Source: a virus. From it: 38,082 nt of DNA. The notes under the pieces are model-generated. The model was not told the origin of the DNA. It worked only from the letters and a program-made list of their open reading frames with translations, and made no database searches. Positions 9,232 to 32,887 of the stretch are shown piece after piece (position 1 is the stretch's first letter; each line of letters opens with the position of its first letter). The stretch lies in the IMG/VR virus record IMGVR_UViG_3300044730_000332, positions 1 through 38,082 of that record. One strand, given 5' to 3'. The position numbers and the translations under genes are program-made.

Positions 9232-9238
9232 GTTGACT

Positions 9239-10450
9239 ATGATCAATAAAGCTCCCTTTAATAATCTACTCAAAACACTCAAAGACACGGGCAAATACCG
9301 TGTGTTCAACGACATTATCCGCGAAAAGGGCAAGTTTCCTTCAGCCATGTGGTACGGACCCTACAACATCAAAAGCATCACAAACTGGTGCAGCAACGAC
9401 TATTTGGGCATGGGTCAGCACAAAGTTGTGTTAGATGCCATGCATACTGCTCTAGATCACACAGGCGCAGGATCAGGTGGCACACGTAATATTGCAGGAA
9501 CCAGTCACTATCACGTGGCCTTGGAATACGAGCTGGCCACTCTACACAACAAGGCACGAGCTCTGCTGTTCTCATCAGCCTATGTGGCCAACGAGTGGAC
9601 TTTGATTGCTCTAAGCAAGATCATACCCAACATACATTTTGTTTCGGACAGTGAGAACCACAACAGCCTAGTCATAGGCATGGTTCACAGCCGAGCACCT
9701 AAGACTGTATTTCGTCACAACGATCTCAATCACCTAGAAGACATATTAACCAGCATACAACTCACAGGCAACGTGCCCTGCATTGTATTTGAATCAGTTT
9801 ACTCAATGGATGGCGACGTAGGACACATCAAAGAAATCTGCGATCTAGCAGACAAATATGGTGCTATGACCTACATCGATGAAGTACATGCGGTAGGACT
9901 CTATGGACCCCACGGTGGTGGGAAAGTTGAAGAGCTAGGGCTACAATCCCGTGTTGACATAGTCAACGGTACATTAGGGAAAGCCTATGGGGTCCAAGGT
10001 GGCTATATAGCTGCCGATGCAGAGGTCATTGACGCCATCCGTTCTGTAGCTGCTGGATTTATCTTTACCACATCAATGAGCCCTGTGAGCTGTGCAGGTG
10101 CATTAGCTGCGGTCAAGTATCTAAAGGATCATCAAGAGCTGAGAGACAAGCATCAAGAACGCAGTCGTAAACTCAAACATAGATTGGCTGTGGCTGGCAT
10201 GCCTGCAATGGAATGCACCAGCACACACATTGTTCCTATCCTAGTTGGGGAAGCTGTGCGTTGCAAGGCCATCAGCGATGAACTACTCAACGAGCACAAC
10301 ATCTATATCCAGCCTATCAATAATCCCACTGTGGCAGTGGGCACAGAGCGGTTACGTCTAGCACCTACTCCGTTCCACGATGATGGTATGATTGAAGATC
10401 TAATTACTGCTCTGGCTGCTTCATTTGCGTGTCACCCGGCGCAAGTCTAA
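9239..10450 (+). CDS. hemA: 5-aminolevulinate synthase (ALAS)
   Basis: 403 residues, full length for the family. A PLP enzyme (fold type I, alpha-oxoamine synthase family) that condenses glycine with succinyl-CoA to 5-aminolevulinate, the first step of the Shemin route to haem. Seen: [15 protein letters not shown] (residues 79-92), the [10 protein letters not shown] strand, [17 protein letters not shown] with Asp214 and His217 around PLP, and GTLGKAYG with the PLP lysine Lys248. The wording of these motifs fits ALAS better than the relatives Kbl or BioF. The start is the ATG behind a late box; a TTG 6 nt upstream almost touches the box. It overlaps the convergent cupin gene by 47 bp. Phage-encoded ALAS has been reported from aquatic viromes; a metabolic aid to the infected cell is inference. 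Confidence 0.92.
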
Positions 10451-10787
10451 ATCGATCTTCAACGTAGTCCGAGGTGCTAACTTCAAAGATCACACTGTTG
10501 GCAACCAGTGCTTCGATTTGATGCGGACCAAGAGCTCCGAAATCTGCAGTTTTGCCTTCTTCTAGGATGGCTTCCTTGGCTTCACCTGTGCTAACATCAA
10601 TGTAGGTTACCTTGAATCTACCAGCATTGATAAACCAACTCTTGTATTTTTCTTTGTGAAACACCAAACTGGTTTTGGCTCCTGCACGTTCGAATACAAG
10701 GAGTTTTCCGCAGTATTTGTCGTTGTTGGCCCATACCAATTCAAATCCCCACCCTTTGTCTATTTTACCTAATGTTTGTAAGTTCAT
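10404..10787 (-). CDS. Cupin-fold protein (127 aa)
   Basis: A single small beta-barrel. Seen: [43 protein letters not shown], then [26 protein letters not shown], the strand order of cupins of the mannose-6-phosphate-isomerase/sugar-isomerase type. The His of FHKEKYKSW and of GPHQIEAL are possible metal ligands, but the set is thinner than in a classic metal cupin, so catalysis is uncertain. The ATG overlaps the stop of clpP (ATGA), so it is translated with clpP. Its 3' end overlaps ALA synthase tail to tail. Similar small cupins occur in T4-like aquatic phages; the substrate is unknown. Confidence 0.75.
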
Positions 10788-11371
10788 GGTCGTTTCTCGA
10801 TTATTTTATCTACTAGGCCATAGGCCAGTGCTTCTTCTGCTGACATGAAGGTGTCACGATCCATGTCACGCTCGAAGTCTTGATAGGTCTTGCCTGCGGT
10901 ATTGTGTTTAACATAAAGTTCAGTTAAGATTGTTTTCATCTTAGTGATCTCTTTGTATTGGATTTCAATGTCACTTTGCATACCGCGAGCGCCACCTGAA
11001 GGCTGATGTATCATGTGACGTGCATAGGGCAACATGTATCGTTTACCTTTGGCACCTGCTTGTGCTAGAAAGCTGCCCATTGAGCAGGCCTGCCCCATCA
11101 CATAGGTAGCAACAGGACAACGAATAAACTGCATGGTATCATAGATACTCATGCCGGCAGTGATAACACCACCTGGGCTGTTGATAAACATGCTGATTTC
11201 TTTATCTGGATTTTCGCTTTCTAAGAACAGCAATTGGGCCACAACCAGATTGGCCATGTGATCTTCTACAGGACCATTCAACATGATAATACGCTCTTTG
11301 AGCAAACGACTAAAGATGTCGTAGGCCCGCTCACCTTTTGATGTAGATTCAACTACCATTGGTACTAACAT
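10784..11371 (-). CDS. clpP: ATP-dependent Clp protease proteolytic subunit
   Basis: 195 residues, normal for mature ClpP. The catalytic triad is complete: Ser97 in GQACSMGSF, His122 in MIHQPSGG and Asp169 in [14 protein letters not shown] (oxyanion loop) and the axial NGPV segment are also present. ClpP forms a 14-mer barrel that degrades proteins fed by ClpA/ClpX; no unfoldase is in this window, so it would use the host's. The start at 11371 is chosen because AAAGGA lies 7 nt upstream; a TTG further up has no ribosome site. It has its own sigma70 promoter and is coupled to the cupin gene downstream. Likely an acquired host gene that reshapes host proteolysis during infection. Confidence 0.95.
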
Positions 11372-18208: not shown

Positions 18209-18286
18209 GGGCCTCTAGCTCATGTTGGTTAGAGCAGTGGACTCATAATCCATTGGTGCCGAGTTCGACTCTCGGGGGGCCCACCA
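18209..18286 (+). tRNA. tRNA with CAT anticodon (Met or Ile2)
   Basis: A complete cloverleaf can be drawn: acceptor GGGCCTC pairs fully with GGGGCCC (one G-U), D-stem GCTC/GAGC, anticodon stem GTGGA/TCCAT with loop CTCATAA, T-stem CCGAG/CTCGG with TTCGACT, and an encoded CCA. The first pair is G-C, so it is not an initiator. CAT may read AUG, or AUA if the C is changed to lysidine; the sequence alone does not decide. Confidence 0.93.
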
Positions 18287-18291
18287 CACAG

Positions 18292-18368
18292 CAGCCCTTA
18301 GCTCAGTTGGATAGAGCAACAGCCTTCTAAGCTGTAGGTCAGAGGTTCGAATCCTCTAGGGCTGGCCA
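18292..18368 (+). tRNA. tRNA-Arg (TCT anticodon)
   Basis: Complete cloverleaf: acceptor CAGCCCT/AGGGCTG, D-stem GCTC/GAGC, anticodon stem ACAGC/GCTGT with loop CTTCTAA, T-stem AGAGG/CCTCT with TTCGAAT, discriminator G and encoded CCA. It reads AGA/AGG, codons often rare in the host but used by phages. Only 5 nt separate it from the CAT tRNA, so the two are one transcript. Confidence 0.95.
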
Positions 18369-18862: not shown

Positions 18863-18868
18863 TATAAC

Positions 18869-19207
18869 ATGAACTTAGAAAAGCCCACCCGCAAGAAACG
18901 TGTTGACCGCACTCATATCATCTATGAGCTACGTGTCAACGGAGACAACTACATAGGAGTCACTGCCAAAACAGAGACTACTATTAATAAGTCAGTTCTT
19001 GCTCGTGCAGCCAAGCACTTCTATCGTGCCAAACGTGAGAACAAGGACTGGCTGCTTTGCCGGGCCCTGCGTGGTCTCAACGACAAGAGCGAGATCGAAG
19101 TACTAGTTCACGAAACACTGCGAGGCAAGGCCGCTGCCCACAAGCGTGAGGTAGAACTACGTCGCGCAATTAACCCTACGCTGAACACGGATGTTCGTGG
19201 GGACTGA
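18869..19207 (+). CDS. GIY-YIG-like nuclease domain protein (112 aa)
   Basis: After a basic N-terminus the sequence reads IIYELRVNGDNYIGVTAKT, which matches the two strands of the GIY-YIG fold (IY at 18-19 in place of GIY, YIG at 28-30). Arg46, Glu95 in the EVELRRAINPTLN helix and Asn106 could be the usual Arg, metal-binding Glu and Asn. The full GIY triad is altered, so activity is uncertain. It may be a free-standing homing-type (Seg-like) nuclease or a domesticated relative. The start is set by the ATG 6 nt after the -10 box; no ribosome site exists. Confidence 0.55.
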   Translation: MNLEKPTRKKRVDRTHIIYELRVNGDNYIGVTAKTETTINKSVLARAAKHFYRAKRENKDWLLCRALRGLNDKSEIEVLVHETLRGKAAAHKREVELRRAINPTLNTDVRGD

Positions 19208-28994: not shown

Positions 28995-29049
28995 AATAAC
29001 ATGCTGAATGATTGGCATATTTTTAACACACACAGAAAGAGGTAACATC

Positions 29050-29361
29050 ATGGCAACAGATAAAAAGTTTGCAGTAGCAGGCGTTTCAACATACGAAGGC
29101 AAGACCAAGGTTCGTTTCGCCAACGACACCATGCGTGTCAAGATCCTGGCCAAGAACGGTCACACAGACGTGCAGCTCGTGGATCTTCCACATGAGATGA
29201 CCAAAGCGGAGATCGGTCAGCACATGATCGCCACTGGCTTTGGCAAGGGCAACGCAGCTATCGAAGCTGCTGTAGCCTACGTAGTCAAGAAGAACCCTTC
29301 GGCCACAGCTGCCAAGGTAACTACAACTACTGTCGCGAAGGCAGAAGCTGTTGCTGAATAA
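29050..29361 (+). CDS. Conserved small phage protein (103 aa)
   Basis: AAAGAGG lies 9 nt before the ATG. The sequence MATDKKFAVAGVSTYEGKTKVRFANDTMRVKILAKNGHTDVQLVDLP is a beta-rich small domain seen in T4-like aquatic phages, followed by MTKAEIGQHMIATGF and an Ala/Thr/Lys-rich disordered tail. The codon choice is highly regular, as in strongly expressed genes. Its 3' UTR carries the second CCGATTCGCTCTCGG element and an excellent terminator, so this gene and the HTH-like gene share a tail layout. Function unknown; possibly an abundant early DNA- or polymerase-binding protein. Confidence 0.75.
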   Translation: MATDKKFAVAGVSTYEGKTKVRFANDTMRVKILAKNGHTDVQLVDLPHEMTKAEIGQHMIATGFGKGNAAIEAAVAYVVKKNPSATAAKVTTTTVAKAEAVAE

Positions 29362-29362
29362 C

Positions 29363-29377
29363 CCGATTCGCTCTCGG
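29363..29377 (+). ncRNA. 3' UTR element CCGATTCGCTCTCGG, candidate sRNA seed
   Basis: One change from the copy at 22382. CGCTCTC is complementary to the GAGAGCG leaders at 24546 and 27937, whereas the other copy fits GGAGCGA leaders. A strong terminator follows 18 nt later. Confidence 0.4.
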
Positions 29378-29395
29378 TAAGCAGCAACCTTGATA

Positions 29396-29428
29396 GAGAC
29401 CCTACTAACACTAGGGTCTCTTTTTTTT
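29396..29428 (+). terminator. Intrinsic terminator after the 103-aa gene
   Basis: Perfect 8-bp stem GAGACCCT/AGGGTCTC with a 9-nt loop, then eight T. Its last TC dinucleotides mark the left border of the YC-free island. Confidence 0.95.
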
Positions 29429-29430
29429 GG

Positions 29431-29459
29431 TTGACATTTTGGACAAAGTGCGTTATAAT
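29431..29459 (+). promoter_or_regulatory. Sigma70-like promoter of the 83-aa gene
   Basis: TTGACA, 17-bp spacer, TATAAT; leader with AAAGGACAC. It directly follows the terminator at 29396. Confidence 0.9.
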
Positions 29460-29488
29460 AACAACTTACACACACAAAAGGACACAAA

Positions 29489-29740
29489 ATGTTAACACAA
29501 TGCATAGCATACGCAAAGCTAGTTTACAACAAAAAACTTAACGCATACAAAATGCAAATTGCGTTTAACGTACACAAAGAGTTAGTAGGCACTAGCTATA
29601 AAATGCGCTTTCCTGTGCAAAGCAAATGCAACTACGTTAGTGGGGACTTACTTGCAGAAAATTTAGAAGCAGAAATGCAACGCACAATTATAACAGCAAG
29701 CAAGATGTTGCGCACAAACAACATTGTAGTAGTAGAGTAA
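29489..29740 (+). CDS. Hypothetical protein in the YC-free island (83 aa)
   Basis: MLTQCIAYAKLVYNKKLNAYKMQIAFNVHKELVGTSYKMRF reads as helix and strands, basic overall, followed by LLAENLEAEMQRTIITASKMLR and VVVE. It has one proline, encoded at the only TCC of the whole island. Ser codons are AGC/AGT, Phe TTT, Ile ATT/ATA. AAAGGACAC lies before the ATG. No family recognised. Confidence 0.7.
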   Translation: MLTQCIAYAKLVYNKKLNAYKMQIAFNVHKELVGTSYKMRFPVQSKCNYVSGDLLAENLEAEMQRTIITASKMLRTNNIVVVE

Positions 29741-29744
29741 AGCG

Positions 29745-29754
29745 TAGGGTTATT
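29745..29754 (+). other. Orphan right arm TAGGGTTATT, copy 1
   Basis: The same sequence is the right arm of the hairpin at 32885, but here no CCC-containing left arm exists. Similar pieces stand at 29974 and 30506. Confidence 0.4.
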
Positions 29755-29756
29755 AT

Positions 29757-29789
29757 AGCACACACTTGCATTTTGGACAAATGTGTGCT
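29757..29789. promoter_or_regulatory. Operator-like inverted repeat over the -35/-10 of the 47-aa gene
   Basis: AGCACACACTT (29757-29767) and AAATGTGTGCT (29779-29789) pair at 10 of 11 positions. The right arm ends on the first base of the -10 box. Confidence 0.6.
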
Positions 29790-29794
29790 ATAAT
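29766..29794 (+). promoter_or_regulatory. Promoter of the 47-aa gene
   Basis: TTGCAT, 17-bp spacer ending TGC, TATAAT; the -35 differs from the TTGACA of the other early promoters. Confidence 0.82.
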
Positions 29795-29817
29795 ATGTTT
29801 TTAACAGAAAGCAAACA

Positions 29818-29961
29818 ATGCAAAATACAAAAAGCAAATTAGACAGTTTAATGTTACAGTTACAAGCAGTGCTAGAAGAAGCAGAGCTAGACGAACACGT
29901 TGCAATACAAAACGCATTTAATGCGTTAGCATGTGCGCTAGACGACACAATTATAGCATAA
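29818..29961 (+). CDS. Hypothetical mini-protein in the YC-free island (47 aa)
   Basis: MQNTKSKLDSLMLQLQAVLEEAELDEHVAIQNAFNALACALDDTII is an acidic all-helical peptide, likely a coiled coil or dimer. It has no proline, and the gene holds no TC or CC. It has its own promoter with a palindrome and a modest ribosome site (AGAAAGC). No family recognised; the promoter and composition support it as real. Confidence 0.65.
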   Translation: MQNTKSKLDSLMLQLQAVLEEAELDEHVAIQNAFNALACALDDTIIA

Positions 29962-29984
29962 CACTACAGCGCATAGGGTTATTG

Positions 29985-30017
29985 CGCACACACTTGCATT
30001 TTGGACAAATGTGTGCT
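29985..30017. promoter_or_regulatory. Operator-like inverted repeat over the promoter of the 153-aa gene
   Basis: CGCACACACTT (29985-29995) and AAATGTGTGCT (30007-30017), 9 of 11 pairs, same place relative to the promoter as at 29757. Confidence 0.55.
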
Positions 30018-30022
30018 ATAAT
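29994..30022 (+). promoter_or_regulatory. Promoter of the 153-aa gene
   Basis: TTGCAT, 17-bp spacer ending TGC, TATAAT; nearly the same as the promoter at 29766 from the -35 through TATAATATGTTTTTAAC. Confidence 0.82.
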
Positions 30023-30044
30023 ATGTTTTTAACTAGGAGCAAAC

Positions 30045-30506
30045 ATGCAAAATACAACACAGTATATTACAGAAGCAGAAGGCGGCTACGAGCTGTGCAT
30101 TACACTTGACAACGAGCAGTGTGCGGGCGTTAACGTTGAGAGCATTACTATGTTTATTAGCAATGTAAACGACGCAGAAGACGGCGACGAAGCTTGCTAT
30201 TACGATGGGGACTTAGCTGTTAACTACAACATAGACACTTTGCAAAACGATGAGACAGCGCAGACAATGGGAACGCTGTTAGTGCGCAACATACACAGCG
30301 AAGACGAAGTTACTGCTGTTATGGGACAGTTTTATTGGGAGGGAGCATTTACACAACGTTTAAATGCTATACTTGTGGAACACGGCTTTACTGCTAACAC
30401 AGTACACACTAGCGAGTGGGGCATGCAAGACGAGGGACGTGCAAGCTACGACGCTTGCGAGCTTGCGGACGAGATACGCAATATAATGCAAACTGCTACA
30501 GCGTAA
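30045..30506 (+). CDS. Proline-free acidic protein in the YC-free island (153 aa)
   Basis: TAGGAGC lies before the ATG. The N-terminal half is strand-rich and acidic (ITLDNEQCAGVNVESITMFISNVNDAEDGDEACYYDGDLAV). The C-terminal part, FTQRLNAILVEHGFTANTVHTSEWGMQDEGRASYD, aligns with the end of the 112-aa product at 30583 (shared GF.A..V..SE.GMQ....S.D), so the two are paralogues. It contains no proline; the gene has no TC or CC in 462 nt. Function unknown. Separate promoters with a common operator suggest joint control of the family. Confidence 0.78.
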   Translation: MQNTTQYITEAEGGYELCITLDNEQCAGVNVESITMFISNVNDAEDGDEACYYDGDLAVNYNIDTLQNDETAQTMGTLLVRNIHSEDEVTAVMGQFYWEGAFTQRLNAILVEHGFTANTVHTSEWGMQDEGRASYDACELADEIRNIMQTATA

Positions 30507-30519
30507 AGGGTTATTATAT

Positions 30520-30550
30520 AGCACACTTGCAATTTGGACGCAAGTGTGCT
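30520..30550. promoter_or_regulatory. Perfect 11-bp inverted repeat over the promoter of the 112-aa gene
   Basis: AGCACACTTGC (30520-30530) and GCAAGTGTGCT (30540-30550). Compared with the repeats at 29757 and 29985 both arms have changed together, keeping the symmetry. Confidence 0.65.
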
Positions 30551-30555
30551 ATAAT
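30527..30555 (+). promoter_or_regulatory. Promoter of the 112-aa gene
   Basis: TTGCAA, 17-bp spacer ending TGC, TATAAT. Confidence 0.82.
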
Positions 30556-30582
30556 ACATTTTTAAGCAACAAAGGAAACACA

Positions 30583-30921
30583 ATGTATAAAATTAACGCA
30601 ACACTAAACACAAATGGCAACGGCTATTGGAGCAGCACTAAAGCGGCTGTAGAGATTACAGCATTGCAACTTGCATACACAAACGACGAGCTGGACTTTG
30701 GCGAACTACGTGTGCGCTTTAACACAGCAACTTGGGACACAAGCAAGCTGGGGCTTATATACACAGACAAACAGTTTATGCGAGAGCTTAAAGAGCTGTT
30801 AACTGCTAAGGGCTTTGACGCTAGCGATGTAAGCTACAGCGAGCAGGGCATGCAAGGGGACACTTATGTTAGCTGTGACGTGGGACAATGTTTTATTAAC
30901 ACGTTTATGCAACACGCATAA
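30583..30921 (+). CDS. Proline-free paralogue in the YC-free island (112 aa)
   Basis: AAAGGAAAC precedes the ATG; the frame upstream crosses the promoter. The sequence has MYKINATLNTNGNGYWSSTKAAVEITALQLAYTND, a beta-rich start, and ends FMRELKELLTAKGFDASDVSYSEQGMQGDTYVSCDVG, matching the C-terminus of the 153-aa product. No proline, no TC or CC. The SEQGMQ motif occurs, as far as I recall, in scattered phage hypothetical proteins. Last gene of the island; the border follows 17 nt after its stop. Confidence 0.75.
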   Translation: MYKINATLNTNGNGYWSSTKAAVEITALQLAYTNDELDFGELRVRFNTATWDTSKLGLIYTDKQFMRELKELLTAKGFDASDVSYSEQGMQGDTYVSCDVGQCFINTFMQHA

Positions 30922-30936
30922 CAGCACAGGGGCGGT

Positions 30937-30947
30937 GGCCCCGCTGC
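30937..30947 (+). repeat. GGCCCCGCTGC short repeat, copy 5
   Basis: Forms a hairpin with the upstream GGGGC (30929-30945 region), and its CC marks the right border of the YC-free island. Confidence 0.6.
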
Positions 30948-30955
30948 TGTAGGGG

Positions 30956-30984
30956 TTGACACTTTCTTCGTTTGGTTGTATAAT
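30956..30984 (+). promoter_or_regulatory. Sigma70-like promoter of the 129-aa gene, overlapping a T4-type octamer
   Basis: TTGACA, 17-bp spacer, TATAAT. The next bases read TATAAATA (30984-30991), the full T4 late octamer, running into the ATG at 30991. The early message would be leaderless. Confidence 0.85.
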
Positions 30985-31939: not shown

Positions 31940-32887
31940 ATGCAGACCAACATCATTCACCTACAAGACTGCGTGGCCGGCATGCTGTCCCTGCCCGCAG
32001 CCAGTGTGGACATGGTCACAACTTCCCCGCCCTACAACCTAGGCATTGACTACAGCACCTATCAGGACAACAAACCCAGACAGGAATACCTAGAATGGTT
32101 GGACGGGGTGTTTGCTGCCGTCAAGCACTGCCTCAAAGACACAGGCCACTTTTGGTTGAACATGGGCTACAGCAACATCGATCCCTGGGTGGGCATGGAT
32201 GTGGCCATGATCGCTCGCAGACATTTCGTCCTGCAGAACAACTTTGCCTGGGTCAAAAGCATCGCAGTCAATGACGTGACTTCTGGGCATTTCAAACCCA
32301 TCAACAGCACACGATTCGCTAATCCCACGTGGGAACATCTGTTTCACTTCACCAAAACCGGCGCTGTGGTCTGTGACAAGTTGGCGGTTGGAGTGCCTTA
32401 CATGTGGGACTGCAACATTGACAACTCCGGTCGCGTTCGCGGGCGCTTGGCCAAGAAGATGGGATTCACAGACATCAAAGACTTCAATCGTCGAGCCACT
32501 GCTGCTGAACAGGCCAAACTCGCAGCTGATCTAGCACAGAAGATGGCTGCTCAGAAACCACGTCCAGATGTGCGATGCCGGGGCAACAGCTGGTATGTGC
32601 CCTATGATACCATAGCCAATCGAGAGCTACACAGGGGCAGTCATCCCGCCACGTTCCCCGTGGCCCTAATCGAACAGTGCATACGGTTCAGCGGAGTCAA
32701 GTCGGGAGTGTTGGTGGATCCATTCATGGGATCAGGAACCAGTGCTGTGGCCGCGCAGCGTCAGGGCTTGGACTACATTGGATTTGACATTGATGCAGAC
32801 TACATCCAGTTTGCTGAAGATAGGATCCGTGATCAAGCCCAGGGATCTGCGCCATTGAATCCCCTGTTTTTCGAAGCTACGGAATAA
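31940..32887 (+). CDS. Site-specific DNA methyltransferase (beta class)
   Basis: 315 residues. Catalytic motif TTSPPYNLGIDY with SPPY at 29-32 comes first, and the AdoMet-binding motif VLVDPFMGSGTSAVAA near residues 257-272 comes last: this IV-before-I order defines the beta class (N4-cytosine or N6-adenine). The central region (NSWYVPYDTIANRELHRGSHPATFPVALIEQCIR) is typical. All core motifs look intact. There is no neighbouring restriction gene, so it is probably an orphan enzyme that protects phage DNA. It is the only recognised enzyme in the early region with a leaderless TAAATA start, so it may be made late. Confidence 0.92.
   Translation: MQTNIIHLQDCVAGMLSLPAASVDMVTTSPPYNLGIDYSTYQDNKPRQEYLEWLDGVFAAVKHCLKDTGHFWLNMGYSNIDPWVGMDVAMIARRHFVLQNNFAWVKSIAVNDVTSGHFKPINSTRFANPTWEHLFHFTKTGAVVCDKLAVGVPYMWDCNIDNSGRVRGRLAKKMGFTDIKDFNRRATAAEQAKLAADLAQKMAAQKPRPDVRCRGNSWYVPYDTIANRELHRGSHPATFPVALIEQCIRFSGVKSGVLVDPFMGSGTSAVAAQRQGLDYIGFDIDADYIQFAEDRIRDQAQGSAPLNPLFFEATE

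Follow-up and report, generated by a model that had tools for sequence, protein, structure and literature searches.

In a 38-kb genome fragment from an uncultivated phage (38,082 nucleotides; hereafter the window), four consecutive genes lie in an island whose coding strand almost completely lacks the dinucleotides TC and CC (together YC, where Y is a pyrimidine). This ban recurs in related phages and is restricted to certain protein families and to one promoter class, and comparisons among the genes concerned indicate that it is kept up by selection and not by mutation. The explanation that we favor is that these genes are probably a co-regulated set, immunized against a YC-reading factor that acts during transcription or on the transcript itself.

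The YC ban is far beyond chance

Positions 29421–30938 of the plus strand (1518 nt) contain one TC and one CC, both within a single TCC at 29611–29613; an exact recount agreed with the original prediction of a YC-poor island at this place. The unbroken YC-free run extends from 29613 to 30939, up to a CC at the island end. Base composition predicts ~122 YC for the island and the window's own 9.6% rate ~146, and the observed/expected ratio (o/e) is 0.016. Under independence, the probability of a YC-free run of island length is ~10^-54, and the longest such run elsewhere is 119 nt. In the windows adjoining the island YC o/e is normal (0.85–1.0), bearing out the statement that neighboring genes are unlike it.

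Codon shuffling had been raised as a possible source of the run. We recoded each island gene at random 200 times, keeping the proteins identical and using the codon usage of neighboring genes. Expected YC counts for genes 1–4 were 16.3, 9.7, 28.3, and 19.2, and the genes carry 2, 0, 0, and 0. For every gene the observed count lay below all 200 recodings; the closest case was gene 2, of only 47 amino acids, with a minimum of 2 versus 0 found. Three of the four island proteins lack proline, as had been noted from the sequence. Two other IMG/VR contigs carry identical islands, and many contigs carry diverged ones, which rules out sequencing error as the source of the pattern.

Organization of the island and its surroundings

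The island is a block that starts at the T tract of a terminator and ends at a G+C hairpin, and all its genes are on the plus strand. The terminator at its start is an intact intrinsic one (AGAGACCCTA..TAGGGTCTCT plus T tract, 29395–29421) belonging to the preceding normal gene. Directly downstream of the island start lies a perfect sigma-70-type promoter (TTGACA-17-TATAAT, 29431–29459) for gene 1 (29489–29740, 83 aa, family F3), which carries the sole TCC. A terminator relic without a CCC arm (GTAGGGTTATT, 29738–29761) follows and overlaps a palindromic promoter (29752–29794), of which the plus half is TTGCAT-17-TATAAT (29766–29794) and the minus half TTGTCC-17-TATAAT (29780–29752). Since both strands carry TATAAT, this element could also drive antisense transcription. 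Gene 2 (29818–29961, 47 aa, F4) is followed by a second relic, CACTACAGCGCATAGGGTTATTG (29962–29984), whose intact counterpart elsewhere is CCCTACAGCGCATAGGGTC-like. Gene 3 (30045–30506, 153 aa) has the promoter TTGCAT-17-TATAAT (29994–30022) and belongs to F2, a diverged paralogue of F1. Gene 4 (30583–30921, 112 aa) is the F1 member itself, with the motifs FGELRVxF and SYSEQGMQ; its promoter, TTGCAA-17-TATAAT (30527–30555), lies inside an inverted repeat. Genes 2, 3, and 4 are without YC and without proline. The island ends in the G+C hairpin CAGCACAGGGGC..GCCCCGCTGCTG (30922–30949), the 3' arm of which restores the first CCs, and the following promoter is at 30956, past this hairpin. The plus half of the palindromic promoter, the gene 3 promoter, and the end hairpin were read from the sequence, and the relic after gene 1 from the sequence together with the survey of related loci.

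The arm that bears the island (window 14001–38082, and related arms) is G+C-rich (46–48%), with many small co-directional genes, many of which have their own sigma-70-type promoter; it is joined to a remainder that in related genomes (IMG/VR contigs) is mostly 34–43% G+C. Some 1 kb beyond the 3' end of the island, 31940–32887 encodes an N6_N4_Mtase DNA methylase (Pfam PF01555, E = 1.5e-42). Tandem tRNA-Met(cat) and tRNA-Arg(tct) genes occupy 18209–18368. By eye, 9233–10450 resembles a 5-aminolevulinate synthase-type PLP acyltransferase, here phage-borne, and 10784–11371 a ClpP-like protease gene with 11 family members in related loci. The small protein of 18866–19204 (HIIYELRV..YIGVTAK), which has 35 family members in related loci, is by eye possibly GIY-YIG-like; it had no Pfam or PHROGs match, and a DenA-like reading of it was dropped for want of significant similarity to T4 DenA.

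Islands recur in related phages and follow gene families

Locus searches with the island proteins as degenerate patterns, independent of YC, returned 80, 6, 11, 9, and 20 loci. The relatives are nearly all metagenomic, and their whole genomes may be incomplete. Two-state segmentation called YC-poor segments in some 40 loci of searches 1 and 2 and in most loci of the later searches, the longest being 1846 nt. With copies removed, this corresponds to ~30 or more distinct islands in related freshwater phage contigs, an approximate count because some contigs are near-copies. The strictest comprise 1028 nt with 0 YC (locus L150), 1309 nt with 1 (L151), 1766 nt with 2 (L008), and 1652 nt with 4 (L146). 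Every island is on the coding strand; the only opposite-strand YC-poor segments are two weak ones, one over a gene for a coiled-coil protein and the other over a repetitive gene. The island DNA had no match among the isolates of the phage collection.

YC depletion is a trait of ~13 families of small acidic proteins. In families collected starting from the island of this window, 13 family clusters of the arms contain nearly all depleted genes, some without exception, and ~30 large clusters beside them in the same arms have a pooled YC o/e of 0.64–1.04. The median net charge of the depleted-gene proteins is −13.7 per 100 aa, versus −1.4 for other small arm proteins (P = 1.6e-12). Strong acidity is a feature of many phage inhibitors.

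Relatives of the island genes had been proposed as a check on the pattern, and in these YC-poor islands do recur, with F1 found in all grades from 0 YC to normal. Normal F1 genes are mostly in lower-G+C phages. On the F1 tree the zero-YC state is scattered (6 changes for 6 rows), and the F1 gene of L046 has 10 YC and is flanked by YC-free neighbors. The sole isolate relative of F1 in the phage collection is a distant one with normal YC, in Xanthomonas phage X1, and F1 was absent from the host genomes searched. F1, F2, and one further island family share the motif E[QW]GMQ. Searches of the island proteins against Pfam, PHROGs, and PDB gave no significant match, and an Rfam search gave none. The structure predicted for F1 (30583–30921) is confident (pLDDT 93.6); its fold has no relative among solved structures, and the model resembles predicted viral proteins (BFVD entries M1HTR4 and A0A1J0F9Z3, TM 0.74–0.79).

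Selection, not mutation, maintains the ban

Pairwise comparison of YC-free genes gave dS values of 0.4–1.6 and dN/dS of about 0.1–0.4. That these genes have accumulated many synonymous differences and are still YC-free indicates that selection is ongoing. Their YC total is 18, versus 603 expected for the same proteins. A residue of ~3% implies only moderate selection at each site; assuming roughly symmetric mutation, we put the scaled selection coefficient at ~3.5 per site, which is strong yet not lethal for any one site.

We aligned homologues to see which bases replace YC, using present-day sequences only. At positions of synonymous YC in a homologue, the base found in the YC-free gene is T in 53% of cases, A in 31%, and C in 13%. 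A third-position Y before C is replaced by a purine in 50%, versus 3% before other bases. Serine TCN is exchanged for AGY, a two-base change, proline falls from 3.2% to 0.1%, and A-ending codons are favored over T-ending ones. Every route out of YC is in use (C to T, C to A, Y to R), mostly synonymously, so the contrast that had been suggested between T-rich replacement and silent choice comes out on the side of selection. The mixture of replacements also leads us to reject deamination of the coding strand as the mutational cause, one of the explanations originally offered: the YC-to-YT footprint of a deaminase was not found, although the context of such an enzyme (TC or CC with A at +1, and a bias to the non-template strand) was. 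The strand symmetry of restriction avoidance was likewise not seen, with the coding strand at ~3% of expected YC and the GR total (R, purine) near normal.

Depletion coincides with the transcription unit

The YC-poor stretch opens downstream of the −35 element but before the transcription start, and it closes with the stop codon. Around genes that open islands (n = 18 first genes), YC density per kb is 97–119 before position −42, drops to 35 within the promoter spacer, and reaches 14 from 0 to +20; from +20 onward it is 0–3 per kb, versus 54–102 in normal genes. After the last stop codon (n = 9 last genes), it is back at 44–78 per kb.

The depleted genes possess their own promoter class, with the consensus TTGACAtTTTGG.caaagTGcGcTATAAT; that of other genes is GGTTGACAg.ttgg.caaatggTg.TATAATA. 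A GTGTGC/GTGCGC-type box occurs with 36% of depleted genes versus 0.5% of normal genes, and inverted repeats of at least 8 across the spacer with 28% of strongly depleted versus 4% of normal promoters. Terminator stems of the form CCC..GGG[CT] are found ahead of 12 of the 19 first genes, whereas just 6 of the 32 inner genes have one, and relics like the one behind gene 2 are present at nine inner genes. The intrinsic terminators of strict islands are wrecked (CCCTA..TAGGGTC versus CACTA..TAGGGTTA), which suggests that working terminators were stripped of YC through substitutions such as C to A.

The template strand has a partial YC deficit as well

The original prediction held that only one strand is affected and that GA and GG are normal. 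The coding strand is indeed dominant, but a codon-controlled test revealed partial YC avoidance on the template strand; GA and GG are roughly normal, with a drop of GR o/e to 0.69 around 29001–30500. Template-strand avoidance occurs in YC-free and in partly depleted genes and is strongest before A. In several contexts YC before A or G is down to 0.1–0.6, and the template-strand words ATCA, TTCA, and ACCA (plus-strand TGAT, TGAA, and TGGT) stand at 0.13, 0.21, and 0.30 of expected. G as third base goes from 0.60 down to 0.21–0.28 when A follows and changes little before C or T; T as third base goes from 0.32 down to 0.10 when GA follows, with no change before GC or GT. The residual YC of the plus strand is likewise scarcest before A (CCA 0.07, TTCA 0.05). 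Because both strands share this preference for a 3' A, a single reader with a taste for YC(A) that reaches the strands unequally is possible. Alternatively, antisense transcripts from palindromic promoters (29752–29794) could be the source of the template-strand effect.

A proposed mechanism and its rivals

A force that is confined to transcription units, is stronger on the coding strand, and acts on one regulon fits a factor working on transcripts or on elongating polymerase at the stage of infection when the regulon is in use. We propose that the islands are a phage regulon of small acidic proteins with its own sigma-70-type promoter class, and that selection has purged TC and CC from each transcription unit, from promoter to stop codon, and continues to do so. 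The island genes, which may be early genes, would have to be transcribed and translated while a YC-reading factor is active; this factor would recognize YC either in the RNA as it emerges or within the transcribing complex, with the result that the transcript is aborted or cut. Since YC is tolerated by the other arm genes and elsewhere in the genome, such a reader should be limited in time or to a promoter class. If it were a host nuclease countered by the acidic proteins, only the genes for these proteins would need immunity. Tentatively, the YC-less regulon alone might be expressed under an antiviral or shut-off YC reader, which its acidic products would oppose. The depletion of the template strand counts against part of this reading, in that it does not follow from a reader that acts solely on the sense RNA.

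Escape from Rho or another YC-reading factor had been put forward from the start. As a class this accounts best for the promoter start, the stop-codon end, the coding-strand bias, and the selection; Rho alone does not account for the template-strand depletion. We consider it rather unlikely that host Rho by itself would end these transcripts early and that all UC/CC contacts were removed for this reason. The islands still contain C>G bubbles, by which rut sites are usually recognized (14.5% of 78-nt island windows versus 29.8%, with a maximum of +12.8 points), and neither the template-strand depletion nor the YCA preference agrees with Rho. Moreover, adjoining genes are not depleted, most of the phage tolerates YC, and no Rho of their own was found in the phages. 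On the other hand, Rho is the best-known and most economical of the known readers, depletion is limited to the extent of the transcript, and rut-like YC ladders (9–13 nt spacing) number 0 versus 32.9 per kb in neighbors. The dinucleotides match those of E. coli Rho exactly, which reads CC or UC (PMC13323073). Rho sites are described as C-rich/G-poor stretches with several spaced YC (PMC9160355), unlike the isolated YCs in translated frames that have also been removed here.

That YC is read by an endoribonuclease of phage or host, or by a termination factor resembling T4 Alc, and that the island genes are expressed while this reader is active seems to us quite possible, if short of probable; were it a host defense, the acidic island proteins would be antagonists of that reader. 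Selection against each single YC up to the stop codon, and less in the terminator stem, would suit such an enzyme, as would the promoter class and the small, strongly acidic proteins. We know of no enzyme of this kind with YC specificity, however, and YC is tolerated in the remaining phage genome, which is transcribed in the same cell. No gene constantly neighbors the islands, and no candidate reader gene keeps company with them; a search of the phages for a phage-encoded multi-subunit RNAP found none. A reader acting at elongation could detect C in either DNA strand; T4 Alc is a precedent in that it senses unmodified C (PMC2988021).

An attack at YC(A) on the displaced coding strand of these genes, which would be highly transcribed, by a single-stranded DNA cytosine deaminase or endonuclease (APOBEC-like, or like T4 endonuclease IV/DenB), with the damage exerting selection, is improbable. 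APOBEC3A/B and T4 EndoIV prefer TCA, in line with the strongest context seen here, and the coding strand is affected far above the template strand. However, replicating DNA would be exposed everywhere, and the lack of a C-to-T bias together with the preference for A-ending codons excludes mutation pressure and leaves only damage-avoiding selection. A search for denB (phrog_1360) was negative in all 15 related records, which are possibly fragments, and recovered the T4 control at 3.5e-99. A donor element whose base composition or mutational habit was frozen after transfer, as had also been suggested, is very hard to credit. Genes do shift between positions and genomes, but maintenance of the YC-free state to dS 1.6 contradicts a frozen habit, as does its scatter on the F1 tree; the families are resident ones of every YC grade, with the promoter and ribosome-binding-site style of the arm and the regulatory signals of resident genes. 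Low RNA structure was dismissed as the goal (islands, −24.7 kcal/mol per 120 nt; neighbors, −28.4; shuffled, −21.8), as was CRISPR PAM avoidance, by the reasoning that it would be strand-symmetric.

Overall, a ban on two dinucleotides that is all but absolute, spans up to 1.8 kb, concerns certain genes of one regulon, and persists at high synonymous divergence is a natural experiment, pointing to a strong force in infected cells that reads sequence. Should Rho be the reader, the island genes display a Rho-proof design and phages meet Rho as a barrier. If it is not, the islands would point to an undiscovered nuclease, terminator, or defense, and the acidic proteins would be candidate inhibitors. 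Should the more tentative reading be true, in which the acidic products oppose an antiviral or shut-off YC reader, that reader would represent a new kind of host defense or of phage takeover.

Comparison with known systems

The closest parallels lie in systems that also read cytosine or short words. In Bacilli, genes have a Rho-driven purine bias (PMC13323073); there, as in the islands, the coding strand avoids a UC/CC reader of nascent RNA and codon choice is bent accordingly. The Bacilli bias is mild, genome-wide, and one of purines, whereas the islands combine a near-absolute YC ban with close to normal C content, are limited to one regulon, and have a template-strand component. Avoidance of restriction sites or toxin cleavage motifs by phages similarly concerns a short word that an antiviral enzyme recognizes, but restriction avoidance is strand-symmetric and genome-wide, and the island ban is strand-biased, two letters long, and regulon-limited. 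T4 endonuclease IV (DenB) offers a likeness in its C-dependent attack on single-stranded DNA, and differs in having no homologue in the related records. T4 Alc ends host RNAP transcription on unmodified-cytosine DNA at many discrete C-dependent sites (PMC2988021), which silences the host; a phage needs an immunity of its own against such a factor. T4 obtains that immunity by modifying all of its C; in the islands, immunity would instead be written into the sequence, and only for some genes.
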